Shown here: positions 8,641 through 40,295 of the stretch, one piece after another | How positions within the stretch are numbered: the first letter of the stretch is position 1 | How the letters are laid out: every line of letters starts with the position of its first letter | DNA from: a virus | Direction: 5' to 3' (one strand) | IMG/VR virus record: IMGVR_UViG_3300003322_000534 | Coordinates: 1 to 40,295 of that record | Length of the DNA stretch: 40,295 nucleotides | Program-made: the position numbers and the translations under genes | The notes under the pieces: generated by a model | Database searches by the model: none | What the model saw: the letters and a program-made list of their open reading frames with translations, nothing else | What the model was told of the DNA's origin: nothing

Positions 8641-8697
8641 TGTGCATTGAGAGAAGGACCACTGAAGGCAATCCTGCCTGACAGGAGAGCCCAACCC

Positions 8698-13700: not shown

Positions 13701-13720
13701 AGCTGGCTCCTTTGGTTCGG

Positions 13721-18561: not shown

Positions 18562-19505
18562 GCATCCCCCTCGCCATCAAACTCAGGCTCAGGCTTTTCT
18601 TCCGTGACCTTTATGCCCTCGACGTGAATTTTGCCGTCTTTCACGGTGCCGTTGACTTCAGCCGTGTGGTCGCCACCCGGCTTCCCCTTATCGACCTTGG
18701 CGAACTTGTCGAGCTTGGCCTCGGCTTTCGGCTTCTCTGGTGTCTCCTGCTTCACCTGCTCATCGACCAGCTCGCTCGAGATGATCAGATCATTGCCCTC
18801 GATCACCGTATGTTTGCCGGCGTCGTGCTGATCTTCGAGAGCTGCCGCTCGCTGCACGGACATCGGCAGATTCTTTGAGAGCTGACGAATGGCCGTCTTT
18901 TTGCCCATCGCCTCATAGTGGCTTTCCCAAGGGGTGTCCTTGATCTTGCCGGCCTTGAAGGCTTTGTAACCCTCCGATGCATCACGCACCTTGTTGATGT
19001 CCTCGACCGTAAGATCCACAAAATCGAAGCCACCATTGGTGAAGTGGGCGACGGCATAGAAGCCGACTATCTCGCCACGGTCGCCCTTGGCCTTCTCGTG
19101 CTGTAGATCACGCTTCAAGCCATGAATGACCTTGTAGGTGTCTTTCTCGCGCACCTCGACGGCATAGAGATCCGAAACCTCACCGCTGTTGCGCGCCAAT
19201 TTTATGTAGCCCTTGTACCCAGGGATGAACTGCACCTTCCGCTTGAACGGAACCAGGTAGCCATGCCCAAGCACACCATCCGGCTCGAGACCGAGAGCGC
19301 AGGCCGTCATCACCGATGCCAGCAGCGAACCGCGGTCACAATCGAGGATGAAAGGGTTGTTCTGGATCTGATTGAGCACGATCCGATTCATGCGCTCAGG
19401 ATCTAGGTGCTTAGGCAGCGCCATCGCCATCTGCGGCTTGAGCTGCTCGAGCAATTGCCTCACGGTCCCTAGGCGCGGGTCCTTCTTTACGACTTCGGTA
19501 TTCAC
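18558..19505 (-). CDS. recT: RecT-type single-strand annealing protein
   Basis: 315 residues from a GTG start that has AGAAGGAGAAGG upstream and overlaps the exonuclease stop by one base. Residues 10-230 match the RecT family: MNRIVLNQIQNNPFILDCD, then LEPDGVLGHGYLVPF, QFIPGYKGYIKLAR and WESHYEAMGKKTAIRQL. The last 80 residues are an acidic, Lys/Glu-rich tail of low complexity. It anneals complementary single strands behind the partner exonuclease, as in RecE/RecT. Confidence 0.93.
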   Translation of the reverse strand: MNTEVVKKDPRLGTVRQLLEQLKPQMAMALPKHLDPERMNRIVLNQIQNNPFILDCDRGSLLASVMTACALGLEPDGVLGHGYLVPFKRKVQFIPGYKGYIKLARNSGEVSDLYAVEVREKDTYKVIHGLKRDLQHEKAKGDRGEIVGFYAVAHFTNGGFDFVDLTVEDINKVRDASEGYKAFKAGKIKDTPWESHYEAMGKKTAIRQLSKNLPMSVQRAAALEDQHDAGKHTVIEGNDLIISSELVDEQVKQETPEKPKAEAKLDKFAKVDKGKPGGDHTAEVNGTVKDGKIHVEGIKVTEEKPEPEFDGEGDA

Positions 19506-20389
19506 TATGCCTTCTCCTTCTGTTTGTGTTGAGTGACTCGGGTCACGGCATAGGCCTTGCGGATGTAGCTAACCGGCGCTTCAGCAACCATGCTTTGACT
19601 AATACTGAATCCCATGGTCACAGCTTTAGCAGCGTCGGCGACGATGGTACGGATCTCGGCCAGCGCGGCTTCTTTGCGCGCTTTTGCATCTTTCTCTGCG
19701 TCGTTGGCTGCGATGTACTCGCCGCACAGCACGGGCAGGTGATTATTCGCCGTGAGATCGATCACCTTGTCTTTGGTCACCGACATCAGCGATGCAATGG
19801 TGCCGCCGTCATAGGCAAAGTCTGGCTTGGGCTCTTGGTTATTCTGAACGCTTGTCCAAAAGAGCGCGACTTCATCCTCGATCTGTGCGACGGCTTCTCG
19901 GTGCATATGAACGCGCATTCGGTAAAGCTTGCCGTTCAGCATCACAACAAGCCAACCATAGGGAGCCCCGGTTACCGCTAGCTGGGCTTGCACCTGCAGC
20001 AGATAGCGGAATGGCGCATCGAGTATCTCATCGCCCTCGACTTCCCAGCCTTCACGCGACTGGCTCCATTTAATCTCTACGGGGATTAGGCTACCTTCTG
20101 CATGCTCATAATCGAGCGAGCAGCCAAAGCGATCAATGTGTGGGTGTTTGATGTAGCGGTGCACTTTCCGCAGCTTCATGCTCCACTTATCAGCGGCCCA
20201 TGCAGCGATGGCTGGCTCGAGATAGGTGCCCGCCTGGATGTAGGGATTGTCGGAAAGATCTTCGGGCTCTATACGCCCGGCCTTCTCGAGCCATAGTTGC
20301 CAGCGGCTTTTGAACCCGACCCCGAATAAGTCAGCCACTTCGCTTGCGCCGATGAAATTCTTCCTATCGGTGAGCGCAATATTGCTCAT
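19505..20389 (-). CDS. YqaJ-type recombination exonuclease (lambda Exo / RecE-like)
   Basis: 294 residues from the ATG at 20389, chosen for the GGGGGGA site upstream and for the promoter at 20418-20446. Motifs of the YqaJ nuclease fold are visible: GASEVADLFGVGFKSRWQLW, Glu58 in TYLEP, Asp93 in SLDYE, Glu105-x-Lys107 in VEIKWSQ, and QVQAQLAVTG. It should degrade one strand of duplex DNA from ends and load the RecT partner encoded next. It is the first gene of the long leftward operon. Confidence 0.88.
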   Translation of the reverse strand: MSNIALTDRKNFIGASEVADLFGVGFKSRWQLWLEKAGRIEPEDLSDNPYIQAGTYLEPAIAAWAADKWSMKLRKVHRYIKHPHIDRFGCSLDYEHAEGSLIPVEIKWSQSREGWEVEGDEILDAPFRYLLQVQAQLAVTGAPYGWLVVMLNGKLYRMRVHMHREAVAQIEDEVALFWTSVQNNQEPKPDFAYDGGTIASLMSVTKDKVIDLTANNHLPVLCGEYIAANDAEKDAKARKEAALAEIRTIVADAAKAVTMGFSISQSMVAEAPVSYIRKAYAVTRVTQHKQKEKA

Positions 20390-20417
20390 GTATTCCCCCC
20401 TCAATAAGTATGCATGA

Positions 20418-20446
20418 CTCATAACTGCATTAATGCAGTAAGTCAA
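20418..20446 (-). promoter_or_regulatory. Leftward early promoter with operator in the spacer
   Basis: Reading leftward: TTGACT (20446-20441), 17 bases, TATGAG (20423-20418). The spacer contains the perfect palindrome CTGCATTAATGCAG (20425-20438). A repressor on this palindrome would block the promoter for the exonuclease-RecT operon. The box fit is good, and the regulation is inferred. Confidence 0.7.
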
Positions 20447-20503
20447 CACGCAAAATACCCCGTTATGGGTAGCTATGTGCAGTTATGCTGTGTTCTTATT
20501 GTT

Positions 20504-21214: not shown

Positions 21215-21679
21215 ATGGTGTTTGTTGGCATTGATCCAGGCCTCAGCGGAGCGTTGGCGCTCTATGACCCGGCTCGAGATTGGCTCGAGGTGCACGACTG
21301 TCCTACCCTTAAGGTCAATGGCAAAGGCGAGATGTTCCTGCCTGGTATCATTGACATTCTAGGGTCAGCGGAGGTCATTGGCTGCATCATTGAGCGCAGC
21401 CAAGCAATGCCTAAACAAGGTGTATCAAGCACGTTCAGCTATGGAACAGGCTACGGCAGCTATCTAGGGATTTTGGCGGCTCTTGGTATGCCACACACAA
21501 AGATCGGGCCGCAAGAGTGGAAACGAAAACTGCGGGTGCCGTCTGACAAGGATGGAGCCCGAGCTCGAGCCTCTGAGCTTTTGCCCGCCCACACGGGCAA
21601 ATGGTTGCGCAAGAAAGATCACGGCCGAGCTGAAGCAGCGCTGCTCGCCTACTTCGCCGCAAACCATGCCCAGCTTTAG
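21215..21679 (+). CDS. RuvC-like Holliday junction resolvase
   Basis: 154 residues. Catalytic layout of the RuvC fold: Asp7 in GIDPGLSGA, Glu60 in IERSQAMPKQG, and Asp135 and Glu140 in KKDHGRAEAALLA. It should resolve branched DNA during replication and recombination. It starts directly after the HTH stop, with GAGGAGGA upstream, and overlaps the SSB start by 14 bases. Length and motifs fit phage and plant-symbiont type RuvC relatives. Confidence 0.85.
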   Translation: MVFVGIDPGLSGALALYDPARDWLEVHDCPTLKVNGKGEMFLPGIIDILGSAEVIGCIIERSQAMPKQGVSSTFSYGTGYGSYLGILAALGMPHTKIGPQEWKRKLRVPSDKDGARARASELLPAHTGKWLRKKDHGRAEAALLAYFAANHAQL

Positions 21680-22058
21680 CCAGGTCAACGTTCTCGGCTA
21701 CGTCGGCAACCCGGTTCAGCTCATGACCGGCAAGGGCAAGAACTTTGTTCAGCTTAGCGTCGGCGTCACCAAGGCCTACAGGCAAGGGAAGAAGTGGAAT
21801 ACTAAGACAAGCTGGTTCAAGGTAATGTTCTTCGGTGAATACGCCGACATCGTTGCCACGCGGGTCAAGAAAGGCGATTGGTTACACATTACCGGCGAGC
21901 TCGCTGTATCGGAATGGGTCAAAGATGGCATTAATCGCTACGATTTGTATGTTGCTGGCCGTCATTTCACACCAATGCGTAACGATAAGGGTAGCAAAGA
22001 CGACGATAATTACGGCGTGCCAGAAGATGAAATAGCTGACGATCAAATGGTTTTTTAA
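21666..22058 (+). CDS. ssb: Single-stranded DNA-binding protein
   Basis: 130 residues, starting MPSFSQVNVLGYVGNP. OB-fold pattern of bacterial SSB: FVQLSVGVTKAYRQGKKW, TSWFKVMFFGEYADIVAT, KKGDWLHITGEL. The acidic C-terminus ends DDQMVF, similar to the DDIPF partner-binding tip. It coats single-stranded DNA for replication and RecT recombination. The start overlaps the resolvase stop region by 14 bases; I see no strong ribosome site, so it is probably coupled. Confidence 0.88.
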   Translation: MPSFSQVNVLGYVGNPVQLMTGKGKNFVQLSVGVTKAYRQGKKWNTKTSWFKVMFFGEYADIVATRVKKGDWLHITGELAVSEWVKDGINRYDLYVAGRHFTPMRNDKGSKDDDNYGVPEDEIADDQMVF

Positions 22059-22101
22059 TTTTCCACATTGATTTCTTATTTCGATTGACTGCGCGGCCTA
22101 A

Positions 22102-22115
22102 CTGCATTAATGCAG
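22102..22115. promoter_or_regulatory. Operator palindrome upstream of replication genes
   Basis: A perfect copy of CTGCATTAATGCAG preceded by CTAA. TTGACT at 22085-22090 lies upstream, and a -10 overlapping the palindrome (TTAATG, 16-base spacing) is possible but weak. It sits in the 170-base gap before the DUF1376 gene. Confidence 0.6.
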
Positions 22116-22116
22116 A

Positions 22117-22220
22117 ATAGGCGAGGGGGGCATTACATCGTTTACTCGATGGCGTGTTGCGCAACCCCCCAAGGTTGCCCCCCTCGCTATCTTTCTTGGG
22201 GAACAATAAAAATCTCTTGG
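22117..22220 (+). promoter_or_regulatory. Structured leader RNA upstream of the DUF1376 gene
   Basis: An outer inverted repeat GCGAGGGGGGC (22121-22131) pairs with GCCCCCCTCGC (22177-22187). Inside it a hairpin GCAACC-CCCCAA-GGTTGC spans 22161-22178. CCCCCCAAG (22165-22173) is also complementary to CTTGGGGGG at 22217-22225, which is the ribosome site of the next gene. The two pairings compete, so the leader could switch translation. This is seen by eye only and not folded. Confidence 0.45.
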
Positions 22221-22228
22221 GGGGGATT

Positions 22229-22936
22229 ATGAGTCATGAATGGTATCCTTGGTATCCGGCGCTTTATAAAGCCGATACGATGCACTTAACCGCCGAGCAG
22301 GATGGAATTTACCGCCGGCTCATAGATCACTACATGGAAACACGGCAACCGCTGCCCGCAAATGATGCGGCGCTTGCCCGTATTGCCGGCGTTGATATGC
22401 AAACCTGGACCAATGCTTTAGCTATAGTTGAGCCATTCTTCAACCAAGGCAGCGACGGCCTACTGCACCACAAAAGATGCGATTTAGAGCTAGATCGACA
22501 AGACAAGCTCTCGAAAAACCACTCCGAGAGAGGCAAAAAGGGCGCAGAAAAAAGGTGGAAAAATCAACAACCTGATAGCAGTAGCCATGCTTTGGCTATA
22601 GCTGAATCAATGCTTGTCGATAGCACAAGACAAGACAAGACAAGACAAAAAGAAGCTAACGCTTCTTCTGCAGAAACCAAAAAAATTGATTTTGATTTTG
22701 CTGTGGGTAAATTCACCGGCATCACCAAGCGGCAGTACGAAACCTGGTGCGAGGCCTTTCCCGCAATCAACGTCGATGCGGAGATAAGGAAGGCAGCCGT
22801 GTGGCTCACAGCCAATCCGAAAAACCGCAAGTCGAACTACAGCCGGTTCCTAGCGAATTGGCTCACCAAGACCCAAGACAAGGCGGCAAGGGTTGGAGCA
22901 TCAAGCGGCGTCACACCGCTCGGGGTAGGGGGTTGA
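22229..22936 (+). CDS. DUF1376-family replication-associated protein
   Basis: 235 residues from the ATG behind GGGGGGGA. Residues 3-110 match the DUF1376 (YdaU) domain: WYPWYPALYKADTMHLTAEQ, GIYRRLIDHYMETRQPLP and an RGKKGAEKRW end. Such genes sit at the phage replication module, often as initiator-like proteins ahead of a helicase or helicase loader. The C-terminal part (ITKRQYETWCEAFP) looks like a second small helical domain. A run of four ACAAG units lies at 22625-22644 in the linker. Confidence 0.8.
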   Translation: MSHEWYPWYPALYKADTMHLTAEQDGIYRRLIDHYMETRQPLPANDAALARIAGVDMQTWTNALAIVEPFFNQGSDGLLHHKRCDLELDRQDKLSKNHSERGKKGAEKRWKNQQPDSSSHALAIAESMLVDSTRQDKTRQKEANASSAETKKIDFDFAVGKFTGITKRQYETWCEAFPAINVDAEIRKAAVWLTANPKNRKSNYSRFLANWLTKTQDKAARVGASSGVTPLGVGG

Positions 22937-22937
22937 G

Positions 22938-23201
22938 ATGGATGTGGGGGAATTTCTAAGCCATCACGGCATCAAGGCAATCCGTAGCAGCGGTAGTTTC
23001 AAAACCACCTGCCCCAAGTGCAGCCACACCAGGCGTAACAAGACTGATCGATGCTTGAGCGTCACCATCGACCACGAGGGCTGTGTCGTTCATTGCCACC
23101 ACTGCGGATGGGCAGCCGGCAGCAAGGGCAGGGAGCCCGAGCCTAAAAAGTCCACCTCCCGCAATGACGGACGGCTCCGAACCGCCAAGCGGGGGTGGTA
23201 A
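22938..23201 (+). CDS. Primase zinc-binding domain protein
   Basis: 87 residues. Cys25-x2-Cys28 and Cys53-x2-Cys56 (TTCPKCSHTRR and VHCHHCGW) form the zinc ribbon found at the N-terminus of T7 gp4-type primases, which reads the priming site. The usual fusion partner, TOPRIM plus helicase, follows in the -1 frame with a TAATG overlap. A GGGGG run just before the stop could allow a slip that joins them. Alone it could act in trans with the next protein. Confidence 0.8.
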   Translation: MDVGEFLSHHGIKAIRSSGSFKTTCPKCSHTRRNKTDRCLSVTIDHEGCVVHCHHCGWAAGSKGREPEPKKSTSRNDGRLRTAKRGW

Positions 23202-24652
23202 TGCTGCGCCAAGAACACATGGAGCTCCTCGAGAGCAGGGGGGTGAGCCCTGAGTTACTCACACGGCTTGGCGTCGAGAGTGGTGACGGGGATTGGATAA
23301 AAATCCCATACGTTGCTGATGGCAAAATTGTAAATTTCAAGCATAGAACCATCGCCGGCCAGAAGCAGTTTCGGCAGGAAAAGGATGCGCGCAAATGCTT
23401 CTGGAACTTCGATATCCTCAAGGATGAAACCCTGAAAGACATGCCCCTCATCATCACCGAGGGGGAGTTTGATGCGATGATCGCCATGGAGTGCGGTTAT
23501 GCTCGGGTCATCAGCGTGCCCGATGGAGCTCCGGCCGAGGCCATAGGCGACAAGGAAAGCCAGAAATACACCTACCTCGATGATGCTGAGCACCTGCTCA
23601 GGGGTGTGAAGGAAATCATCCTCGCCACCGATGGTGACGGGCCAGGCATCAACCTCATGAATGACCTGGCCTTGCGCCTAGGCAAAGCCCGCTGCAAATG
23701 GGTCGGGTATCCAAAGGGCTGCAAGGATCTGAACGAAGCATTCATGAAGCACCGCAACGGCGCGGAGGCTGTGCGACAAACGATTGCCCGCGCTCAATGG
23801 TGCAAGGTCGATGGTGTCTACCGGATGAGCGAGCTCCCGCCTGTGGTCGAGCCGCTCGTGTACGAGATCGGCATTCCTGGCCTCGGTGAGCATTACAAAA
23901 TCCGGCCAGGTGACTTGACCATCGTTACCGGCATTCCTGGCCATGGCAAGTCAAGCTTCCTCAACGATGTAGCTTGTCACATGGTCAGCCGGCATGGATG
24001 GGGTGTTGTGTTTGCTAGTTTCGAACAGGAGCCGCAGACCGACCACCGCCGGAATCTGCGCACCTGGTATAGCCGCAAATGGGTCAAGGACATGAACCAG
24101 GCCGAGCTCGCCGCGGCTGACACTTGGATCGAGAAAAGCTTCAGTTTCATTTGCCCAAGCGAGGATGATTACGTGAGTCTTGATTGGGTGCTCGAGCGTG
24201 CCGCAACAGCCGTGCTGCGTTTCGGTGCAAAGCTGGTCATCATCGACCCATGGAACGAGATGGATCACGTCAGGCCCAAGGACATGACGGTAACCGAATA
24301 CACAGGCAAGGCCATCAAGGATTTCCGCTTGTTTGCGAGGAAGTACAGCGTCCATGTCGTGGTGGCCGCCCACCCCGCCAAGCAGCAGAAGAAGCCCGAC
24401 GGCACCTATCCGATCCCAACCCTTTACGACATCAGCGATAGCCAGCACTGGTACAACAAGGCCACCGTGGGCATCGTGGTGCATCGGCCCGACAAGGAGA
24501 AAACCATCATCCGAATTGCGAAAAGCAAATACCACAACATCATCGGGAAGCCTGGTGACCTCGAGGTAACGTTTGACCTGCAAACGAATCGCTATGACCT
24601 CTACCAAGCCGCACCCCAAGCGGCGTCCTATTCATGGCAGCGTGATGATTAA
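23201..24652 (+). CDS. TOPRIM primase-helicase (T7 gp4 / Twinkle-like)
   Basis: 483 residues. The TOPRIM domain has Glu87 in IITEGEFDAM and Asp144/Asp146 in ATDGDG. A linker leads to a RecA/DnaB-type helicase domain with Walker A GIPGHGKS (244-251) and Walker B LVIIDPW, and an AAHPAKQ segment like the helicase motif 3. It should synthesise primers and unwind DNA at the fork. It lacks its own zinc domain, which the preceding ORF supplies. There is no phage DNA polymerase in the genome, so host polymerase is presumably recruited. Confidence 0.92.
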   Translation: MLRQEHMELLESRGVSPELLTRLGVESGDGDWIKIPYVADGKIVNFKHRTIAGQKQFRQEKDARKCFWNFDILKDETLKDMPLIITEGEFDAMIAMECGYARVISVPDGAPAEAIGDKESQKYTYLDDAEHLLRGVKEIILATDGDGPGINLMNDLALRLGKARCKWVGYPKGCKDLNEAFMKHRNGAEAVRQTIARAQWCKVDGVYRMSELPPVVEPLVYEIGIPGLGEHYKIRPGDLTIVTGIPGHGKSSFLNDVACHMVSRHGWGVVFASFEQEPQTDHRRNLRTWYSRKWVKDMNQAELAAADTWIEKSFSFICPSEDDYVSLDWVLERAATAVLRFGAKLVIIDPWNEMDHVRPKDMTVTEYTGKAIKDFRLFARKYSVHVVVAAHPAKQQKKPDGTYPIPTLYDISDSQHWYNKATVGIVVHRPDKEKTIIRIAKSKYHNIIGKPGDLEVTFDLQTNRYDLYQAAPQAASYSWQRDD

Positions 24653-25372: not shown

Positions 25373-25401
25373 AATATAACTGCAAAAATGCAGCTTGTCA
25401 A
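25373..25401 (-). promoter_or_regulatory. Leftward sigma70-type promoter with operator in the spacer
   Basis: Reading leftward: TTGACA (25401-25396), 17 bases, TATATT (25378-25373). The spacer holds the operator variant CTGCATTTTTGCAG (25380-25393). The boxes are nearly ideal. It faces the 100-residue gene at 25341. Confidence 0.8.
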
Positions 25402-25552: not shown

Positions 25553-26029
25553 ATGAATAAAGCGCTCCCATCTCCAACAGAACCAAAGCTCACTAAACGG
25601 CAAGAGCGTTTCCTTGATGAACTCGTAGCTAACGGCGGCAATCTAGAAGAAGCCGCAATAAGTGCCGGATATTCAATCAAATCCGCCAGAACAGCCGCGA
25701 ATCATAATATGCGCTTAACGCACGTTCAACAAGCGCTCGAGGCACGCTTGACCCGCAAGCTTAAGGTGGGGAAAGCCCTAGCAATCAAGACCTTAGAGAG
25801 CGTAGCACGCCACGGTTTCAAGGATGCCGCTCGAGTAGCTGCAGCCAACGCCATACTAGACAGAGCAGAGAAGCTCGAGGGGCTAGCGAAGGGCAATAAT
25901 GCAGGTATATCAATCAGTATCAACATGCGCAGCGACACAGGTGCGACACAGCCAACAGTGATCATTGATCAACATGCTGATGAACAAGGGCAAATAACAC
26001 AGAGCGAAGGTGATGACGCATCAGATTAG
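25553..26029 (+). CDS. terS: Terminase small subunit
   Basis: 158 residues. Residues 12-110 show the TerS pattern: KLTKRQERFLDELVANGGN, an HTH (EEAAISAGYSIKSARTAANH), then helices for oligomerisation. The acidic C-terminus ends in a flexible tail. It recognises the packaging site and recruits the large subunit, which is unusually far away (28411), separated by nine small genes. No ribosome site precedes the ATG. Confidence 0.8.
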   Translation: MNKALPSPTEPKLTKRQERFLDELVANGGNLEEAAISAGYSIKSARTAANHNMRLTHVQQALEARLTRKLKVGKALAIKTLESVARHGFKDAARVAAANAILDRAEKLEGLAKGNNAGISISINMRSDTGATQPTVIIDQHADEQGQITQSEGDDASD

Positions 26030-26355: not shown

Positions 26356-26384
26356 TTGACTAACTGCATTAATGCAGGTACGCA
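26356..26384 (+). promoter_or_regulatory. Rightward promoter/operator for the small-gene cluster
   Basis: TTGACT (26356-26361) is followed by the perfect palindrome CTGCATTAATGCAG (26364-26377), placed exactly as in the two leftward promoters. The -10 position reads TACGCA (26379-26384), which is weak, so activation or a shifted -10 is possible. The first gene starts at 26441. Confidence 0.6.
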
Positions 26385-27134: not shown

Positions 27135-27421
27135 CCGGGAGACACCAGCGCCGTTTTGTTCAAGGGGCGGGCTTCCACGAGAAGATGATGGTGCCGACCG
27201 ATGTGCGGGTGTTCACCTGCCTCAACCACGACGGTTTCCATGGAGCCTCGAGCCATCGGGCTTCAATCATTGTGGCGAGAGATGAGGTTCATGCCAGGGA
27301 GCTCCTCGATAAAGCGCTAGAGAGGTCAGGGCTCAAGGGGTTCAGGAAGGTGAAGTATACACTTTGGGAAACCCCGCTTGATCGGTGGTCGGCTGAAGTG
27401 CTGGCAGATGGGAGCATGTGA
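27131..27421 (+). CDS. 96-residue phage protein, unknown function
   Basis: Starts at a GTG that overlaps the upstream stop (GTGA), behind AAGGTGGAG. The body has a VFTCLNHDGFHGASSHRASI stretch and a helix of charged residues (HARELLDKALERSGL), then KVKYTLWETP. A compact alpha/beta protein. No enzyme motif is recognised. Confidence 0.6.
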   Translation: MTGRHQRRFVQGAGFHEKMMVPTDVRVFTCLNHDGFHGASSHRASIIVARDEVHARELLDKALERSGLKGFRKVKYTLWETPLDRWSAEVLADGSM

Positions 27422-27897
27422 TGAAAGAGATTGAGCTTGGTCGCGGCATCAAGGCCATTGTGGATGATGAAGATTATGAGTGGTTGAATCAGTGGAAATG
27501 GTGCGCTGGTGGGCGAGCACCATACACTGCGCAAAGGCGGGCTGGGAAATTCCGAGTTCTTCTGATGCATCGTATGGTCATGTCTTGCCCGGCCGGCAAG
27601 GTGGTCGACCATATCAACGGAAACTCGCTTGACAATCGTAAGGCCAATTTACGCATTTGCCGCCAAGGTGAAAATGCAAGGAATGCCGCCAAGAGGTCGC
27701 ATAACAAATCGGGCTTCAAGGGCGTCTGGTGGCACCCGCAAAGCCAGATGTGGCGGGCAGTGGTTAGGGTAAACGGGAAGAACAACCACATCGGCCTTTT
27801 CAAAGGCAAAGAGGATGCCGCGCGGGCCTATGACCAGGCTGCCGTCAAACTCCACGGTGAGTTTGCGAGGACGAATGCAATGATGGGGCTGCTCTAA
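27421..27897 (+). CDS. HNH endonuclease with AP2-type DNA-binding domain
   Basis: 158 residues. HNH core VDHINGNSLDNRKANLRICR in the middle, preceded by LLMHRMVM, and a C-terminal AP2-like domain (GFKGVWWHPQSQMWRAVV, IGLFKGKEDAARAYDQAAVK). It has the same architecture as 14976-15524 on the other arm. The ATG overlaps the upstream TGA. It probably spreads as a homing element and may cut intron-less target genes in related phages. Confidence 0.87.
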   Translation: MKEIELGRGIKAIVDDEDYEWLNQWKWCAGGRAPYTAQRRAGKFRVLLMHRMVMSCPAGKVVDHINGNSLDNRKANLRICRQGENARNAAKRSHNKSGFKGVWWHPQSQMWRAVVRVNGKNNHIGLFKGKEDAARAYDQAAVKLHGEFARTNAMMGLL

Positions 27898-28259: not shown

Positions 28260-28424
28260 ATGGCGCGACCGAAGATCATTCAGGAAGCAGAGGCGAAAGA
28301 TGCGCGCGTGCGCCTTGGGATGTCGATGTGGGACAAGCTCGCGCGCAAGGTGAACAGGGGGGAGGCCTCGAGCATATCGGCCCTCATCCGTGATGCTGTT
28401 GAGGAGAAGTATGGCCAAGGCTGA
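28260..28424 (+). CDS. 54-residue ribbon-helix-helix-like protein
   Basis: Starts MARPKIIQEAEAKDARVRLG. The order strand (DARVRLGM), helix (MWDKLARKVN), turn (RGEASS), helix (ISALIRDAVEEKY) is the ribbon-helix-helix DNA-binding pattern. It overlaps the large terminase start by 14 bases. It could regulate the packaging or late genes, which is inferred. Confidence 0.65.
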   Translation: MARPKIIQEAEAKDARVRLGMSMWDKLARKVNRGEASSISALIRDAVEEKYGQG

Positions 28425-29961
28425 GTTCAATTATTCGCCGCCTGGCCAGGTATGCGCTGATTACCTTGCATCAACCAGCTTCTTCACCGGCGTGCGCGGG
28501 CCAGTGGGCTCCGGTAAGTCGGTAGTCTCCTGCGTCAAGATCCTTTATCACGCGACCCAACAGAAGCCTGGGCCCGATGGTAAGCGGCGCACGCGATGGG
28601 CGGTAGTGCGTAACACCAACCCGCAGCTCAAGACGACCACCATAAAAACTTGGCTCGATTGGTTTCCCGAGCACATATGGGGCAAGTTTAACTGGTCACC
28701 GCCGTACACCCATCACATTCAGCAGGGCGATCTCGACATTGAAGTGATCTTTCTGGCCCTCGACCGGCCAGAGGATGTGAAAAAGCTCCTGTCGCTCGAG
28801 CTCACCGGCGGCTTCATCAACGAGGCGCGCGAAGTGCCGAAGGCGATTGTCGATGCGCTCACCATGCGCGTCGGCCGATTCCCTTCCATGAAAGACGGCG
28901 GACCCACCTGGTATGGGGTGTTTGCCGACACCAACGCACCGGATGACGATCACTGGTGGCCGATCATGTCTGGCGAGGCACCGATACCCGACTACATGAC
29001 ACGAGAAGAAGCCCTAAGCCTGATCAAGCCCGATGACTGGACGTTCATGACCCAGCCGGCTGCCATGCTCGAGGTGCGCAATGAAGATGGCAACGTGACG
29101 GGCTACAAGCTGAACCCGGCGAGAGAGAACCGCGAGAACGTCACCCTCGAGTACTACAAGAAGATCATCACCGGGAAAACAAAAAGCTGGATCGATGTGT
29201 ACGTGCTGAACCGCTTAGGGCACGTGCAAGATGGCAAGCCCGTCTATACCCAATATGTCGACGAGAAGCATGTGGCGAGGGAGCCACTCAAGTTTGATAA
29301 CCGCCTGCCCCTCTATGTCGGCATCGACTTCGGGCTAACTCCGTCGGCCACCATCGGCCAGCGGTTGCCCACTGGGCGCTGGCTCATCCTCAAGGAGATC
29401 GTGGCGAGCAACATGGGGGCCTCGAGGTTTGCCCCGATTCTGCGGGTGGAGCTGCAACGCATCGCGCCTGGCCACAAAGAGATCAAGATGTATGGCGACC
29501 CGGCCGGCGACATCCGGGCTCAAACCGATGAGCAAACGCCGTTCGACATCTTTCGCGCCAATGGCCTCGTGGTCTACCCGGCGCCGTCCAATGACATCGC
29601 GCTGCGCATTGATGCAGTTGACGCCTGCCTGACCCGCTTCGTTGACGGCAACCCCGGCTTCCTGCTCGACCCCGAGTGCAAGTCGCTGCGCAAAGGCTTC
29701 CGCGGCGGCTACCACTACAAACGTATCCAGGTATCCGGCGAGGCAAAATACGGCGAAACACCCGACAAAAACAAATTTTCACACGTGCATGATGCGCTGC
29801 AATACATGCTGCTCGGCGCCGGCGAAGGCCGCAAGCTGACCATTGGCGACCGCAACATGAAGCCCACCGTTGCTGAACGTTCGTTCAACGTATTTGACCG
29901 ATCAGCAGGTGGGAGAAAGAAGCGCGAGAGCATCTATCGCCGGCGAGATGGTATCAAATGA
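28411..29961 (+). CDS. terL: Terminase large subunit
   Basis: 516 residues from the ATG at 28411 behind GAGGAG. Walker A GPVGSGKS at residues 30-37, with the ATPase continuing to about residue 270. The C-terminal nuclease domain begins near VGIDFGLTPSATIGQ and includes GDPAGD and HVHDALQYMLLGAGEGR. It pumps DNA into the procapsid and cuts concatemers. The length is normal for the family and no catalytic loss is visible. Confidence 0.95.
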   Translation: MAKAEFNYSPPGQVCADYLASTSFFTGVRGPVGSGKSVVSCVKILYHATQQKPGPDGKRRTRWAVVRNTNPQLKTTTIKTWLDWFPEHIWGKFNWSPPYTHHIQQGDLDIEVIFLALDRPEDVKKLLSLELTGGFINEAREVPKAIVDALTMRVGRFPSMKDGGPTWYGVFADTNAPDDDHWWPIMSGEAPIPDYMTREEALSLIKPDDWTFMTQPAAMLEVRNEDGNVTGYKLNPARENRENVTLEYYKKIITGKTKSWIDVYVLNRLGHVQDGKPVYTQYVDEKHVAREPLKFDNRLPLYVGIDFGLTPSATIGQRLPTGRWLILKEIVASNMGASRFAPILRVELQRIAPGHKEIKMYGDPAGDIRAQTDEQTPFDIFRANGLVVYPAPSNDIALRIDAVDACLTRFVDGNPGFLLDPECKSLRKGFRGGYHYKRIQVSGEAKYGETPDKNKFSHVHDALQYMLLGAGEGRKLTIGDRNMKPTVAERSFNVFDRSAGGRKKRESIYRRRDGIK

Positions 29962-30597: not shown

Positions 30598-32178
30598 ATG
30601 GCGTACGATGCACAGCCTCATGCCGTCACTGTAAGCGGCGACAGTAAAACAAAAAAGCTGCTCGAGCGCTTCTCAAAAGCGCAGACAAAGCGTCAAGTGT
30701 GGGAACCAGTCTGGCAGGATTGCTATGACTTTGCCCTGCCACAGCGCGAAGGCTTCAACAATGATGAGGTTGAAGGCGAGGAGCGCATGGAGAACATCTT
30801 TGATGAAACCGCGCTTGTTGGCGTGCAGGAGTTCTCCAGCCGAATGGTCGCTGGTATTTGGCCGGCACTAATGCGCGCCGTCAAACTTGATCCCGGCCCG
30901 AGCGTGCCGAAAGAGAATGTAGACGCGGTGACCCGCGGCCTCGAGGAGATCGAGGATGATTTCTATGATGTGATAAACCACTCCAACTGGCAGCAGGAAT
31001 TTTATGAGGGCATGCAGGAGGTTGCGACCAGCACCGCTGCTATGCTGGTCGAGGAAAACGATGAGCCGGATAATCCGGTGCGCTTTACCACGGTGCCACT
31101 CAGTAAGCTATGGATAGAGCGCGACGTATTTGGGGGCGCCGGCGCTGTGTTCCATTCTCCGAAGATGCGCTTTGGCGACCTCAAGGTGAAATGGCCGAAA
31201 GCGGAGTTCCACAATTCCCAGCTCCTTCAGAAGATTGAGAAAGAGCCCGACGCTGAAACCTGCGTCGTGGTGGCGGTCTACCGTGACTGGTCGATTCGCA
31301 CTGAGGAAGTCAACCGCATGTGCGTGATCGTTAAAGACTTTACCGACACAATCTATGAAGATGAGTTCCGCGGCGAAGGTTCAAATCCTTGGATCATCTA
31401 TGGCTGGTCACGCGCCGCCGGCGAAACCTATGACCGCGGGCCACTCATCAATGCGCTGCCGGCGATCCGCACACTGAATCTCACCGTTCAGCTCGTGCTC
31501 GAGAATGCCGAGCTCGCGATCAGCGGCATGTGGCAGGGCGACGACGACGGGGTGCTAAACCCTGATACCATCCGCCTGGTGCCTGGTGTGGTGGTCCCGA
31601 AAGCACCGGGCAGTAATGGTCTGCAGCCGCTCGAGACACCAGGCAGCTTCGATGTTGCTCAGCTCATCCTTGATGAGATGCGGCATAACGTGCGCAAGGC
31701 ACTTTACAACGAAACCCTTGGCCCGCGGGAAGGAACGCCGCCCAGCGCTACCGAAGTGACTGAGCGCATGGCAGACTTGGCCCGTCAGATCGGTGCCCCG
31801 TACAGCCGCATCTTGTCTGGCCTCATTGAGCCGATGGTGCGCCGCGTGCTCTACATCCGCCGCAAGCAAGGGGCCATCAAGATCCCTCGTATCGGTGGGC
31901 GCTACATCACGATCCGCCCGACCGCGGCCTTGGCAAAAGCCCAGCGCTACGATGACATCTCAAACGAGACTCGGTACTACGGCACCATTGGCCAACTCTT
32001 TGGGCCTGAGATGTTGCCGCTGGTGGCGAAGCCTGAAGAAGTTGCAGCGCGCCTGGCTGATCTATTCCAGGTGAAGAAGGAGCCGCTGCGCACCAAGCTT
32101 GAGGTGAAGAACCTCATGGAGCAACTGAAGAAAGCAATGGCAGCTCAGCAGCAGGCGGCGACACAAACAGGCCAGTAA
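30598..32178 (+). CDS. Portal / head-tail connector protein
   Basis: 526 residues, of the T7 gp8-like head-to-tail connecting family: RVWEPVWQDCYDFALPQR-type N-terminus, FSSRMVAGIWPALMRAVKLD, PLSKLWIERDVFG, and an SATEVTERM helix near residue 380. The Gln/Ala-rich C-terminus is typical. Twelve copies form the ring through which DNA is packed and leaves. Position just after the terminase region supports it. Confidence 0.93.
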   Translation: MAYDAQPHAVTVSGDSKTKKLLERFSKAQTKRQVWEPVWQDCYDFALPQREGFNNDEVEGEERMENIFDETALVGVQEFSSRMVAGIWPALMRAVKLDPGPSVPKENVDAVTRGLEEIEDDFYDVINHSNWQQEFYEGMQEVATSTAAMLVEENDEPDNPVRFTTVPLSKLWIERDVFGGAGAVFHSPKMRFGDLKVKWPKAEFHNSQLLQKIEKEPDAETCVVVAVYRDWSIRTEEVNRMCVIVKDFTDTIYEDEFRGEGSNPWIIYGWSRAAGETYDRGPLINALPAIRTLNLTVQLVLENAELAISGMWQGDDDGVLNPDTIRLVPGVVVPKAPGSNGLQPLETPGSFDVAQLILDEMRHNVRKALYNETLGPREGTPPSATEVTERMADLARQIGAPYSRILSGLIEPMVRRVLYIRRKQGAIKIPRIGGRYITIRPTAALAKAQRYDDISNETRYYGTIGQLFGPEMLPLVAKPEEVAARLADLFQVKKEPLRTKLEVKNLMEQLKKAMAAQQQAATQTGQ

Positions 32179-32220: not shown

Positions 32221-32589
32221 ATGGATAGTGGTTCAGACAGCAAGACATGTATAGGTATAGATGGTTATGCCAGATCCATTGCCATTGAAAACAAGCTGAA
32301 CAGCATCGCTGCTAGCACCTTTGTCCAGCCCGGAGCTCAAGAGTTTCTCGAATATCTGAGGGGGATCACACTTAACGCCATCATGCCGCCTGGTGCGTCG
32401 GATGCAGCATTGCGTGAGCAAGAGGGCATGCGTCGGTTATTCAGCATCATCCAGCAACGTATCAATAAAGGGAAAGAGGGGCCTAATGCTAGTTCAGGGG
32501 TGGAATCGAGTGCTACGCGCGCCGGAGGGCGGGGCGTCAGGGGGAGAAGGAGCGCCAGCGGGCGGAGAAGGAAGCCCGTCGGCGGATAA
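32221..32589 (+). CDS. Head-region phage protein, probably leaderless
   Basis: 122 residues starting MDSGSDSKTCIGIDGYARSI. A conserved-looking segment (PPGASDAALREQEGMRRLFS) resembles small proteins between portal and scaffold genes in related podoviruses. The last 34 residues are Gly/Arg-rich and come from a second reading of the scaffold N-terminal coding sequence. It starts directly after the -10 box with no ribosome site. The function is unknown. Confidence 0.65.
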   Translation: MDSGSDSKTCIGIDGYARSIAIENKLNSIAASTFVQPGAQEFLEYLRGITLNAIMPPGASDAALREQEGMRRLFSIIQQRINKGKEGPNASSGVESSATRAGGRGVRGRRSASGRRRKPVGG

Positions 32590-33331
32590 GGGTGCCGCAG
32601 GCGGCGGTGAAGGCGGAAAGGAGCGGCCTGATTGGCTTCCCGAAGCTTATTGGGATTCCGAGAAGGGCGAGGGCAAATTCGAGGATCTCGCCAAAAGCCA
32701 CGCCGATATCACCAAGAAGATCACGACCCGCAACGATGATTTAAAAAAGCAGGTCAAGGCCGACTTTGAAAAGGAGCGCTTTGCCAAGCGACCGGAGGCG
32801 GCCGACAAGTACGAGCTACGGTTACCAGAGGGCGTTCTGCCTGATGGCGTTGAATGGGAGTTCAACGCCGAAGATCCGCTAGTGAATTTTGCGCGCAACC
32901 TGGCCTATGAGAACGGCCTGGGCCAGGAAGGCTTCGACAAGCTGGTTGGCGAGTACATCAAAAGTGAGATTGCCAAGCTGCCTGATGTCGAAGCTCAGGT
33001 GAAGCGCTTGGGCGAGAAGGGCCCCGAGCGCGTGGCGCGTATCGACCAGTGGCTTTCGGTCAATATGTCGAAAGGTGCCTATGCTGCGCTTTCATCGGTG
33101 GCAAAGAATGCGGAAGTGCTTATTGCTATCGAGGAGCTGATGATGCGGGCAGGAGCTCCGGCCTTCGTGGTTGACAGCGATCCAGGCGGCGACCAGCAGA
33201 TCCTCACCGATGCAGTCGTGCGGAGCTGGCAGGCAGATCCGAAGTATTGGGACCCTGTGAAGCGCGACCCAACCTTCGTCAAGAAGGTCGAGGATGCTTG
33301 GAAAAAACTCTATCCAGCGAACAAGAAGTAA
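32486..33331 (+). CDS. Scaffolding protein
   Basis: 281 residues from the ATG at 32486 behind AGAGGGG. A Gly/Ala/Glu-rich disordered N-terminus is followed by RPDWLPEAYWDSEKGEGKFE and a charged helical coil (RNDDLKKQVKADFEKER), then a helical domain (ADKYELRLPEGVLPDG). This is the pattern of podovirus scaffold proteins, which guide capsid assembly and leave before packaging. It sits directly before the major capsid gene. The first 104 bases overlap the upstream gene. Confidence 0.85.
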   Translation: MLVQGWNRVLRAPEGGASGGEGAPAGGEGSPSADKGAAGGGEGGKERPDWLPEAYWDSEKGEGKFEDLAKSHADITKKITTRNDDLKKQVKADFEKERFAKRPEAADKYELRLPEGVLPDGVEWEFNAEDPLVNFARNLAYENGLGQEGFDKLVGEYIKSEIAKLPDVEAQVKRLGEKGPERVARIDQWLSVNMSKGAYAALSSVAKNAEVLIAIEELMMRAGAPAFVVDSDPGGDQQILTDAVVRSWQADPKYWDPVKRDPTFVKKVEDAWKKLYPANKK

Positions 33332-33496: not shown

Positions 33497-34345
33497 ATGT
33501 CCACAAGTATTGATACTGCTTTTGTTAAGCAGTACGAGAGCGAGGTTCATGTCGCTTATCAGCGCATGGGCTCGAAGCTTCGTAACACGGTTCGCACCGC
33601 GAGCGTGAACGGAGCGAAAGACACCACGTTCCAGAAAATTGGTAAAGGCTCTGCCGGCACCAAAACCCGTCACGGTAAAGTGCCGGTGATGAATGTCGAT
33701 CACACCAACGTGACCGCCACGCTCACCGACTACTACGCTGGCGACTGGAACGACAAGCTCGATAACCTCAAGACGAACATCAACGAGCGTCAGATCTTGG
33801 CGCAAGCTGGTGCTTATGCTCTTGGCCGCAAAACCGATGACCTGATCATCACCGCTGCGGAAACCACCACCAACACCTCTGTTACGGGCGCGACCTGGAC
33901 CGATGGTGTTGACCTTTCTGACATGACCGCAGTGATGCAAGCGTTCGGCAACAATGACGTGCCGGATGACGGGCAGCGCTGGGCCATCGTTGGTTGGGCA
34001 CAGTGGAACCATCTGTTGCAGATCCAGCAATTCGCTTCGGCGGATTACGTGCCTGCTGACCAGATGCCGTTCACTGCTGGTACTCAAGCGAAACGTTGGT
34101 TGTCGTTCAACATTGTGCCTATGTCGACTTCCGACGATGGCCTTGGGAACGATGGCACCAACACCACCTGCCTGTTCTATCACCGCAACGCAATCGGTCA
34201 CGCAATCGGGGCTGAAGTGCAGTCGGATATTACATGGCACGGCGACTATGCAGCTTATTTCATCAATAACATGATGTCACAGGGCGCTGTGCTGATTGAT
34301 GCGAATGGCTGCTACAAAATCGCCGTCAACGACACATTAAGCTAG
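33497..34345 (+). CDS. Major capsid protein
   Basis: 282 residues starting MSTSIDTAFVKQYESEVHVA. The pattern (QRMGSKLRNTVRT, TTFQKIGKGSAGTKTRHGKV, VTATLTDYYAGDWNDKLDNL) is that of the HK97-fold capsid proteins of podoviruses related to the 'phage capsid 2' group. It forms the icosahedral shell. Position after scaffold and its own ribosome site (GAGGGG) support high expression. Confidence 0.9.
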   Translation: MSTSIDTAFVKQYESEVHVAYQRMGSKLRNTVRTASVNGAKDTTFQKIGKGSAGTKTRHGKVPVMNVDHTNVTATLTDYYAGDWNDKLDNLKTNINERQILAQAGAYALGRKTDDLIITAAETTTNTSVTGATWTDGVDLSDMTAVMQAFGNNDVPDDGQRWAIVGWAQWNHLLQIQQFASADYVPADQMPFTAGTQAKRWLSFNIVPMSTSDDGLGNDGTNTTCLFYHRNAIGHAIGAEVQSDITWHGDYAAYFINNMMSQGAVLIDANGCYKIAVNDTLS

Positions 34346-35871: not shown

Positions 35872-36683
35872 TGAGCATCCCACTCTTCCCGGTACGCCAT
35901 AAACAAAAACAGTTCTCTGAGCTGATTGCCACCGCCACCAAGCCTTATGCCTATTGGTCTTTTGCAACCAGTGCCAGCGAAACAATTTCTACTCCAAGCA
36001 CATCAATTGGAAGTAAAACCTCTAGCGGCACTCCAGATTTTGCTACAACTGCTGGGCGTATTACATTAGATAACAGCACCTATTACACATTTGATGATTC
36101 CACAACCGCCAACACTGGGCTGGCAGCGCTGTTGAATTTGGGTGCTGGGGCCATACTTGTGGCCGCCACCGTCAATATTAACGCATCAGAAACCGGTCAA
36201 TCTTGTATTTTATCTGTGCATACGGGCGCAGGCCCGAACTGGCGCTTGGGTGTAACTAAAAACACAACATGGCGGCACGACATCAATCTAGCTATGGACG
36301 CGGAAACTTCGGTTACTCAATATGCTGGAAGTTCAAATGAGTTTGCTTCTGGAACAGACGTTAATCTTGTTTGGTTAATTGATAATAGAAGTGGGGTGTG
36401 GACGCTTTACCGCTGGAATAATGGCACATCGCTTACTGGGGCCACTTGGTCGGGCAATGCCAATAGAGGGCCCTGCACATTTGCAAGCGCCGTTACAAAA
36501 CGTGTGCGCATTGGATCAGATAGCGCTGGAACTCCTGGAAGCCTATTTTGGGGTTCGCTGCGCCGACTTCATGTAGTCAACTATGGAACAGGCGGCCCTC
36601 CTTCCAGAATCAATGATATTGTGGCTTCATTGCATGCGAATAATAACCGCCCTACTCGTCTATTGCTTGAAAGCATCCAATGA
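35871..36683 (+). CDS. Concanavalin-like (LamG-type) lectin-fold structural protein
   Basis: 270 residues. Residues about 40-240 fit a laminin-G/concanavalin jelly roll: YYTFDDSTTANTGLAALLN, AGAILVAATVNIN, WRLGVTK, LVWLIDNRSGVWTLYRWNNG, RVRIGSDSAGTPG, FWGSLRRLHVVNYG. Such folds in phage particles bind glycans or display on heads and tails. It overlaps the metallophosphatase start (ATGA), so the two are likely partners. Confidence 0.6.
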   Translation: MSIPLFPVRHKQKQFSELIATATKPYAYWSFATSASETISTPSTSIGSKTSSGTPDFATTAGRITLDNSTYYTFDDSTTANTGLAALLNLGAGAILVAATVNINASETGQSCILSVHTGAGPNWRLGVTKNTTWRHDINLAMDAETSVTQYAGSSNEFASGTDVNLVWLIDNRSGVWTLYRWNNGTSLTGATWSGNANRGPCTFASAVTKRVRIGSDSAGTPGSLFWGSLRRLHVVNYGTGGPPSRINDIVASLHANNNRPTRLLLESIQ

Positions 36684-38317
36684 CTGCCAAATCATTAGTT
36701 GATGGGCTAAGAGTAAGGCTTGGGTATTGCACAACAACTACGGCTAAAATAACGGTTGTCGCGTTGCAGGATGCTGGCACGCTTAATGTCACCTGTTCAG
36801 GCGGATCAGTTAACATCACCACGCCGTTGACCGGCATTGGTGACGACCACCCCACGTATGGGGCTGGCCAATACCCTTTATTTTACGCCAAGGTTGATAT
36901 CACGGGTCTGACTGCCGGCACACGGTACACGTACACAGTTAGCAAGAACGGCATCACTCGCAGCGGTTCATTTAGAACCATGCCAGCTAACGGCCAGAAT
37001 TATTCGTTTATGATGTCTACCTGTGAACACGGGGAGCAATCCAGCCCAGTCGCGGTGCATCAATTAATGCGCGAATATGCGGAAGCGCAGGAAATCCCGG
37101 TGTATTTCTATGCTCACATAGATGATAATTGGTACACTGATTCTATGCGCTTTTTTGGTTACGGGCCTGCGGCGGGGCAGGATAGGGAAACCGGCTTGCA
37201 AATGTCAAATCTTAGCAAGGATCCTCAAGATACCGGGCTGGCATGGGATTACTCTTTTGTTTGGTCTGGATATTTTGGACTCCTTCCCGGATGGCCGTAT
37301 GGATTCCGTCAAGATCGAATGTGGTGGCATGAAAACATGCCGCTATGGGCGCATTGGGGCGACCACGAGGTGGCGAGCAATTGGCTGCGTGGCTACGGCG
37401 GCCAAGGCAATTGGTACGGCCCTCCGGGTTACAGCGCAGCTTCCGATTTCAGCCCGGTCGGCAATGCGCATGCCGACTTCTTTGGTGAAGTGGCGAAACC
37501 CCTGTGGGAGGCCCTCTTCGGCCAGGCGCTGCCCCCGAAGCTAGGTACGGGGCAGCACTGGGGCGTGAGTTACGGCCCGGTGGCTTTCGCTTCCGCCGAT
37601 GGCAACACCTTTGCCGACGGTCGCCACGGCCTCGTGCCGGGGACAGGAAGTGGTACAGGCAGGCAGGCAGACGGGTCAGTGAATGCCGGAGCAGGAAACG
37701 CAACACTTGACTACCTCGGAGCCACGCAAATTGGCGAAATTCTTGGCTTTTATCAAACAGCAGACAAGCCGTTCAATATTCTATTCACGTCCAATGGCAT
37801 TGCTTCTCACAACGAGCCTTGGGGGCAATGGTGGGTAAATGATTTCGATGATTTTGCGGGGCGCGCCAGCACAGGCGTGCTAAATCAAACGCGGCTGAAT
37901 GGCACGACAGGTAAATTCTGCATTTTGAAGGGCGACACCCATTCATTACATGTGCTGAGCTACCACAGCAACGGCACTGCGGCGGGGCTGGGCGGATCAG
38001 GGCATAACAATAAGGAGCTTTGGGAAATCTGCCCTGGCACAGTCAACGCATCAGGTACAGCTAACACCACATTCCAATATAAAATATTGGGCGAAAAGTT
38101 GCGTTATAAAAAAGATGCTCCATCGCCGCGCGGCAGAAACTATCACGGTTTTCTTCATGTGACAGTGTATGCAGAAGAGTCGCCAAACCGTATGGAGGTC
38201 AGATTGGTAGACACCAGCAGCGGCATGAATGAGGTAGTGTGGTCAGGCGGGTGGAATGCAAATACAAGTGGCAACGCCTTCCAGCGCATAAAGACCTACA
38301 CAAAGATCGCAAATTAA
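36680..38317 (+). CDS. PhoD-type metallophosphatase with N-terminal Ig/FN3-like domain
   Basis: 545 residues. Residues 10-100 form a fibronectin-III/purple-phosphatase-like beta domain ending SGSFRTMP. From 105 on the PhoD metallophosphatase motifs are in order: SFMMSTCEHGEQ (109-120), AHIDDNWY (145-152), HWGDHEVASNW (225-235) and KGDTHSLHV (417-425), which carry the metal-binding Asp, His and Asn residues. PhoD enzymes hydrolyse phosphodiesters, including teichoic acid in Bacillus. There is no signal peptide. Placed among virion genes, it may act on a phosphorylated surface polymer at the cell surface. That role is inferred. Confidence 0.75.
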   Translation: MTAKSLVDGLRVRLGYCTTTTAKITVVALQDAGTLNVTCSGGSVNITTPLTGIGDDHPTYGAGQYPLFYAKVDITGLTAGTRYTYTVSKNGITRSGSFRTMPANGQNYSFMMSTCEHGEQSSPVAVHQLMREYAEAQEIPVYFYAHIDDNWYTDSMRFFGYGPAAGQDRETGLQMSNLSKDPQDTGLAWDYSFVWSGYFGLLPGWPYGFRQDRMWWHENMPLWAHWGDHEVASNWLRGYGGQGNWYGPPGYSAASDFSPVGNAHADFFGEVAKPLWEALFGQALPPKLGTGQHWGVSYGPVAFASADGNTFADGRHGLVPGTGSGTGRQADGSVNAGAGNATLDYLGATQIGEILGFYQTADKPFNILFTSNGIASHNEPWGQWWVNDFDDFAGRASTGVLNQTRLNGTTGKFCILKGDTHSLHVLSYHSNGTAAGLGGSGHNNKELWEICPGTVNASGTANTTFQYKILGEKLRYKKDAPSPRGRNYHGFLHVTVYAEESPNRMEVRLVDTSSGMNEVVWSGGWNANTSGNAFQRIKTYTKIAN

Positions 38318-38396: not shown

Positions 38397-39002
38397 ATGT
38401 CGCTTACCAATATAGATGTTGCCAACCGGATGCTGGCTTTGATTGGCGCCAACGCTATTACGGCCTTTGATGATGGTTCAGCTGAGGCAACGTTCATTAC
38501 TCAAATCTATGAAGGCTTAGTGCAAGCCGAGCTGACCGCGAAGCCCTGGCGCTTTGCTATCAAGCAGGCCGAGCTCGACATGCTGACGGCTGAGCCGGTA
38601 GGGCGGTGGTCTGTTGCGCACCAACTTCCTTCAGACCTACTAAGGCTCTTGGCAGTCACTTGTAATGACTACCCTATCGAATACGACCGCTATGACGACA
38701 TGGTTTATAGCGAATCCGACGCGAGCGATACTCTGGTGGCTGATTACATTTATCGGGTAGATGAGTCTCTCTGGCTGCCGTATTTCACGCAAGGCATCGT
38801 TTACTTAGGCGCTGGCCTTCTTGGTGGAGCCATCGCTCGAGATGCTGCCCTAGTCGAGAAGTACGAGAAGATGGGGCGTGATCAGATTGCCAGGGCCGCC
38901 AATGTCGAAGCGCAGTCACAGAGCTCCAAGCGCGTGCGAACCACTCGGTTCTTGGCAGCTCGAGGCCGGGCTGTTGGTGGATTCAGAGATGATGGGTACT
39001 AG
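38397..39002 (+). CDS. Tail tubular protein A-like
   Basis: 201 residues starting MSLTNIDVANRMLALIGANAI. The pattern 'NRMLALIGANAITAFDD', 'ELTAKPWRFAIKQAEL' and a helical C-terminus (YEKMGRDQIARAANVEAQSQ) matches gatekeeper/tail tubular protein A of T7-like phages, which joins portal and nozzle. It lies directly before the nozzle gene. It starts at an ATG after a 79-base gap with no clear ribosome site. Confidence 0.85.
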   Translation: MSLTNIDVANRMLALIGANAITAFDDGSAEATFITQIYEGLVQAELTAKPWRFAIKQAELDMLTAEPVGRWSVAHQLPSDLLRLLAVTCNDYPIEYDRYDDMVYSESDASDTLVADYIYRVDESLWLPYFTQGIVYLGAGLLGGAIARDAALVEKYEKMGRDQIARAANVEAQSQSSKRVRTTRFLAARGRAVGGFRDDGY

Positions 39003-39004
39003 CC

Positions 39005-40295
39005 ATGCGGAGGCTCCGGCTGGTTAAAACAGATTTTACAGCGGGTGAGCTCGATCCGCTGCTGTTGGCGCGTGAAGATATCAAGGCCTACGCCAAGGGT
39101 GTGGCTCGCTTAAGGAATTACACTCAACTCGATTCAGGCGCCATTCGCCGCCGGCCGGGCAGCAAGTTCATCGATGACCTGTATGATGGCACCATCCTCA
39201 AGCCCTTCGCGTTTGGGCAAAGCCAGGATTACGTCTTTGGCTTCTCCGATACCCGCGTTGACATCTACAACGCTTCCACCGAAGTGCTAGCAACCAGCTT
39301 GACCGGCGCGCCATGGACTAGTTCACAGCTTGACCGGCTCTATCCTGCCCAGTCGGCCGATACCATGGTGGTTTGTCATCCTGATTTGGCGATGCAAAAG
39401 ATCTTGCGCACGGGAGCCTCAAGCTTCACCCGTACAGCTTTTACTTTTGAGGAAAACAGCGCGGGCACCGTTCGCTACCAGCCCTATTACAAGTTTGCTG
39501 ATGACGCTGTGACCATCACTCCATCAGGGGTTACGGGCTCAGTGACCCTGACCGCCTCTTCGGCCGTGTTCTCCTCGAGCCATAACGGCACGATCTTCCG
39601 GTACAAGGAGAAGGAGATACTGATCACCGCCTATACGGACACAACCCACCTTACCGGGACCATTCGTGAGCAATTGCCTGGCAACATCACGGCTGTCGAT
39701 ACGACGGCCGAAACGCTTACCGTTACTGATCATAGCTATGTAACCGGGGAGGCTACTACCTACACCAGCGGCGGCTCGCTCATCGCTGGCCTCACTTCGG
39801 CCACCGTCTACTACATCATCAAGGTCGACGCCAACACAGTGAAGCTGGCCACCAGCGCAGCCAATGCCATTGCTGGCACCGCAATCAATCTGACGGGCAC
39901 GGGAAATGGCACCCTGCTTGGCAGCGTCGATTGGGAGGAGCCGGTGTTCTCTCCCGTGCGCGGGTACGCCAACACTGCGATCTTCCATGAAGGACGGCTG
40001 TGGTTTCTCGGCACCAAGAGCCTGCCGAGCCACGTGTTTGGCAGCAAGACGGATGCCTTCTTTAACTTCGATCTCGGCACCGGCCTGGCCGATGAGAGTA
40101 TCCAGGTTGCTATTCGCTCCGAGCAGATTGGAGAGATACGCGGCGCGGCTTCCTTGCGTCACCTGCAGATCTATACCGACCAGGGCGAGTTTTATGCGCC
40201 GTCATCCGAAAGCCGACCGCTCACGCCAGAAACCTTCTCGGTCAAGGTGCAGACGCGCTACGGCTCCGGCTATGTCACCCCCAAGCCATTCGACG
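39005..40295 (+). CDS. Tail nozzle / tail tubular protein B-like, N-terminal part (continues at 1-860)
   Basis: 430 codons are open from the ATG at 39005 to the window end, starting MRRLRLVKTDFTAGELDPLL. The 'TAGELDPLL.AR.D...Y..G', 'GAIRRRPGSKF', 'NTAIFHEGRLWFLG' and 'FFNFDLGTG' segments are characteristic of podovirus tail nozzle proteins. The last base supplies the first base of a Gly codon completed by bases 1-2. I see no stop in this frame. It pairs with the tail tube A gene just upstream. Confidence 0.88.
   Translation, partial: MRRLRLVKTDFTAGELDPLLLAREDIKAYAKGVARLRNYTQLDSGAIRRRPGSKFIDDLYDGTILKPFAFGQSQDYVFGFSDTRVDIYNASTEVLATSLTGAPWTSSQLDRLYPAQSADTMVVCHPDLAMQKILRTGASSFTRTAFTFEENSAGTVRYQPYYKFADDAVTITPSGVTGSVTLTASSAVFSSSHNGTIFRYKEKEILITAYTDTTHLTGTIREQLPGNITAVDTTAETLTVTDHSYVTGEATTYTSGGSLIAGLTSATVYYIIKVDANTVKLATSAANAIAGTAINLTGTGNGTLLGSVDWEEPVFSPVRGYANTAIFHEGRLWFLGTKSLPSHVFGSKTDAFFNFDLGTGLADESIQVAIRSEQIGEIRGAASLRHLQIYTDQGEFYAPSSESRPLTPETFSVKVQTRYGSGYVTPKPFD

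Follow-up and report, generated by a model that had tools for sequence, protein, structure and literature searches.

The IMG/VR record IMGVR_UViG_3300003322_000534, analysed here over its whole length of 40,295 bases (the window), very probably represents one whole genome unit of a temperate podovirus with T7-like tail and ejection genes, assembled as a closed circle and opened at an arbitrary point. The opening falls within a tail nozzle gene (T7 gp12 or tail tubular protein B type), the two parts of which are found at opposite ends of the record. The phage is a new, diverged relative of a known group; that a complete phage contig closes into a circle is in itself routine.

A tail nozzle gene split across the record ends

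The right-hand ORF (39005-40294) comprises 430 codons and exits the record with base 40295 left over. At the left end, frame 3 can be read without interruption from base 3 up to the stop codon at 858-860, which gives 285 residues. When the ends are joined, base 40295 and bases 1 and 2 form the codon ggt (glycine), and the product of 430 + 1 + 285 = 716 residues reads ...KPFDGATLYVQ... across the joint. The ORF coordinates, the extension of frame 3 to base 860 and the total of 716 residues had been reported in the first-pass annotation, and all were reproduced when re-derived. The same annotation held that the FDG-ATLYVQ joint fits a conserved block of the family; PFDGAT[LV][FY][VL]Q is indeed the commonest junction block in relatives, and a second group of nozzle relatives features LEGGALFVQ or LEGGVLFVQ.

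The two halves match consecutive parts of the same protein profiles. They cover positions 1-404 and 410-707 of PHROG 376, which has 712 positions, and positions 27-154 and 160-282 of PHROG 15566. Both profiles leave a gap of exactly five positions between the two matches, equal to the five residues there that remain unaligned. Moreover, the joined protein matches the tail nozzle structure 8ck1_A in PDB over 7-551 as a single stretch running across the joint (E 1.7e-37). These protein comparisons confirm that the right end encodes the N-terminal part and the left end the C-terminal part of one tail nozzle, which should be annotated as a single 716-residue gene rather than as two fragments.

Conservation of the joint among related loci

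With the joined nozzle protein as query, IMG/VR yielded 80 loci, the best of which shows 44% identity over residues 1-715. The N-part and the C-part were then run as separate queries against 81 loci carrying an uncut gene, namely the 80 IMG/VR loci and one contig from a metagenome-assembled genome (MAG). In all 81, the DNA spacing between the two parts is exactly 3 bases, or one codon. This constant spacing shows that no base or gene is missing between bases 40295 and 1, and that no base is duplicated. Nearly all relatives in which the nozzle is a single ORF align without gaps through the joint. For two cuts made independently in a circle of this size, such an exact base-level fit would be approximately a 1-in-40,000 event.

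The window features neither a terminal overlap nor a direct terminal repeat at its ends. A direct terminal repeat is the usual sign of a closed phage assembly, not a requirement, and in this record the overlap was presumably trimmed by the assembler. The evidence for closure is thus of a homology type, drawn from the comparison of gene sequences rather than from shared end sequence. An exact search of IMG/VR for the 33-mer spanning the junction found no second copy; this result is uninformative, because nothing near-identical to the window turned up either.

The lack of an overlap would also fit a linear fragment, or a chimera, whose ends merely match the same gene family. Yet all 80 ORFs matching the N-half also match the C-half, and the two sets of scores are correlated (Spearman 0.80). 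Since both halves hit the same ORFs with correlated scores, a chimeric origin is disfavoured. The one-codon spacing argues in the same direction, as does gene order, which is kept across the joint as in relatives: the gp11-like adaptor gene, the nozzle gene, then the downstream virion genes. A chance match or a chimera therefore has a negligible probability.

Gene content

The features of the window are listed in Table 1. The first-pass annotation considered the module set complete, and packaging, head, tail, ejection, lysis, integration, recombination and replication genes were all found. In relatives, the adaptor gene precedes the nozzle gene, and in several of them a gp14-like gene follows it. 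PHROGs 332 and 3437 were matched in the region of the portal, putative scaffold and major head protein. Neither a DNA polymerase nor host genes were recognised among the scanned part of the ORFs.

Table 1 Features of the 40,295-base window.
Feature	Position	Strand	Evidence or remarks
Tail nozzle, C-terminal 285 codons (+2 bases)	1-860	+	PHROG 376, E 1.9e-41
Internal virion protein (T7 gp14-like)	860-1327	+	PHROG 418, E 2e-24; Pfam T7_gp14 below cut-off; directly 3' of nozzle
Ejection proteins of 710, 900 (transglycosylase domain) and 825 aa	1330-8640	+	PHROG 992, 4067 and 684, respectively
Tail fibre protein	8647-10065	+	Several PHROG tail fibre families
HNH-type endonuclease	11042-11575		
SleB-type cell wall hydrolase (lysis)	11563-12018	+	Pfam PF07486, E 2e-13
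Rz-like spanin (lysis)	12321-12557	+	PHROG 1275, E 1.5e-9
Tyrosine integrase	12489-13727	-	PHROG 1, E 7e-64; PF00589, E 2.5e-21
HNH-type endonuclease	14976-15524		
Lar-like restriction alleviation match	15517-15963		Weak; PHROG 599, E 6e-10; Pfam PF14354 below cut-off
HNH-type endonuclease	15960-16826		
Excisionase-like HTH protein	18224-18580	-	
RecT annealase	18558-19505	-	
RecE-like exonuclease	19505-20449	-	
Holliday junction resolvase, SSB, DUF1376 primosomal protein, primase/helicase	21215-24652	+	
Terminase small subunit (TerS)	25553-26029	+	PF03592, E 5.6e-12; PHROG 51
HNH-type endonuclease	27418-27897		AP2 domain; just upstream of TerL region
Terminase large subunit (TerL)	28390-29961	+	PHROG 2
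Portal	30598-32178	+	PF12236, E 2.6e-77
Putative scaffold	32393-33331	+	Position between portal and head protein only
Major head protein	33497-34345	+	
545-aa protein	36680-38317		Weak purple-acid-phosphatase/hydrolase similarity
Tail adaptor (tail tubular protein A, gp11-like)	38397-39002	+	PHROG 394, E 6e-31; directly 5' of nozzle as in relatives
Tail nozzle, N-terminal 430 codons (+1 base)	39005-40295	+	PHROG 376, E 9.4e-69

Some additional genes were observed. The 545-residue protein, whose gene lies after the head genes and before that of the tail adaptor, is unusual cargo for a structural operon. The four HNH-type genes, all carried within a 40-kb phage, are probably free-standing homing endonucleases. 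The Lar-like ORF is possibly an anti-restriction gene, as suggested by its weak profile match.

Relationship to known phages

Among annotated phages, those nearest by TerL are Pelagibacter phage EXVC031P Hodr (OQ414635; 60% identity), Methylophilales phage MEP301 (MW452941; 43%) and Burkholderia phage BcepC6B (43%). The nozzle, the adaptor, the head-tail connector portal and the T7-like ejection proteins are all present in the order found in MEP301/BcepC6B-like podoviruses.

Besides TerL, MEP301 shares 32% identity with the window in the nozzle and 33% in the portal. In MEP301 and its metagenomic relatives, the order of terL, head-tail connector, major head protein, tail tubular A, tail tubular B and internal virion protein genes is the same as in the window. 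Further points of resemblance are the YqaJ exonuclease and SSB genes of MEP301, its lack of a DNA polymerase gene (none being recognised in the scanned ORFs of the window either) and its assembly as a single circular contig. The two genomes differ in size and composition (34.8 kb with a GC content of 40% in MEP301, 40.3 kb and approximately 54% in the window). They also differ in gene content: MEP301 has ERF in place of RecT, and a protein with a resolvase domain but no complete integrase that could be recognised; the window carries a tyrosine integrase, RecT and a primase/helicase.

Hodr has a genome of 34.2 kb and a Pelagibacter host. Its portal is 42% identical to that of the window, and its nozzle is 35% identical over residues 1-549 only. 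In the group of BcepC6B and Bordetella phage BPP-1, the order TerS-TerL-portal-head-tail-ejection-fibre-lysis is similar to that of the window, but the nozzle is far more diverged (23% identity in BPP-1). With the window, a group represented mainly by marine contigs and a few isolated phages gains a complete genome that carries an integrase.

End overlaps, break points and packaging

Closure is frequent among the relatives. Overlapping ends are present in 12 of 20 long relative contigs and vary in length from 22 to 333 bp. Moreover, the break points of the relatives, when placed on the round genome, do not depart from uniformity (Rayleigh p 0.78). Because the lengths vary and the break points are scattered, these appear to be assembly overlaps of a circular or circularly permuted template rather than copies of one defined terminal repeat. 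The claim of the first-pass annotation that the genome is complete and closed is supported by this frequent closure, as well as by the register kept in 81/81 loci and the gene order across the joint. The finished genome can be used as such, and its module completeness and gene counts can be taken at face value. Rotating the record to start at terS, as had been recommended, is sensible as a convention.

Three of the 14 closed genomes (the window and two relatives, G013 and Hodr) are broken inside the nozzle gene. The contig IMGVR_UViG_3300021963_000410 (33,066 bp) and OQ414635.1 (Hodr) are circular assemblies opened approximately 1.44 and 1.97 kb into the gene, compared with 1.29 kb in the window. 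The nozzle gene was considered as a break-point hotspot and rejected as evidence, as the overall spread shows no departure from uniformity and the 3/14 count (p approximately 0.05) concerns a gene chosen after the fact; we treat it as a coincidence. It is highly improbable that circular assemblies of this lineage open in this gene more often than expected, the break then being other than arbitrary and marking either a natural packaging terminus or a step in coverage inside a late structural gene.

The phrase "circular phage genome", used in the first-pass annotation, holds in the sense of a circularly closed assembly, a closed head-to-tail unit being supported by the register of the joint. It does not follow from closure that the packaged molecule is circular. 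Packaged DNA of tailed phages is linear. The virion DNA of this phage is likewise most likely linear and circularly permuted and, by analogy with relatives, would be packaged by a headful mechanism from concatemers cut by TerS and TerL. The reads behind the circle would come from virion DNA that is permuted and terminally redundant, from intracellular DNA in circular or concatemeric form, or from both. Inside the cell, the circle would correspond to the replicating or excised genome. The assembler probably joined the ends, trimmed the overlap and then broke the circle inside the nozzle gene. After injection, RecT/RecE-type recombination between the redundant ends may recircularize the DNA, on which the integrase would then act.

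Taken alone, the headful packaging step is fairly likely. A point against it is that the identity of the window's TerL to that of BcepC6B, the phage whose close relative was tested, is no higher than 43%. This relative, vB_E332 (86% nucleotide identity to BcepC6B), is among 82 phages found by PhageTerm to be circularly permuted and terminally redundant (PMC12860723). The authors describing MEP301 inferred from their single circular contig that the genome is linear, with either circular permutation or terminal repeats (PMC8024684).

The second of these options corresponds to a T7-type unit genome, in which a fixed direct terminal repeat has been collapsed to one copy and the actual virion DNA exceeds the unit by one repeat. 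Collapsing such a repeat also yields a circular contig, and the virion proteins are T7-like. TerL, in contrast, is unlike the T7 type and matches PHROG 2, BcepC6B and, weakly, the PBSX-family terminase. The end overlaps of the relatives vary in both length and position, and the BcepC6B-like vB_E332 is reported as permuted; a fixed repeat is thus unlikely. Many temperate phages circularize through cos ends, and closure alone would be compatible with a cos phage of which annealed or intracellular circular DNA was sequenced. This origin is unlikely as well, given the affinity of TerL to a phage group reported to be circularly permuted and the break points of the relatives, which are not stacked at one site. 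Headful packaging of permuted DNA remains the preferred reading.

Lifestyle and host

A temperate lifestyle is indicated by the tyrosine integrase. The window contains no tRNA gene and, near the integrase, no motif resembling a tRNA 3' end that could denote an attP site; a search of the window against Rfam returned no match. A closed circle would also be expected of a prophage maintained extrachromosomally as a phage-plasmid. Such an element is very unlikely, as an excisionase-like protein accompanies the integrase, the scanned part of the ORFs gave no match to a Rep, ParA or ParB family, and the right-hand 25 kb has no match at the DNA level among PLSDB plasmids.

At the DNA level, the right-hand 10 kb has no match among GenBank phages, and TerL has none among PDB sequences. 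Among genome contigs, a single relative was found, the MAG contig NZHS01000019.1 (TerL 57%). Assigning a host through genome contigs was dropped, since this only match is distant. The contig, in which the nozzle gene is uncut, is binned in a Flavobacteriales MAG (MED638) and may be misbinned viral DNA rather than a prophage.

Palindromic repeats

The palindrome AACTGCATTAATGCAG(T) is found at 20423-20440, 22100-22117, 25378-25395 and 26362-26379, as three exact copies and one near copy. The copies are mostly located upstream of genes, namely those of the exonuclease, the DUF1376/primase operon, TerS and a small ORF. These palindromes are likely operators of a phage regulator; no CI-type repressor was recognised among the scanned part of the ORFs. 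When up to three mismatches were allowed on both strands, 10 matches were counted against 0.47 expected, a number reached in none of 100 shuffles.
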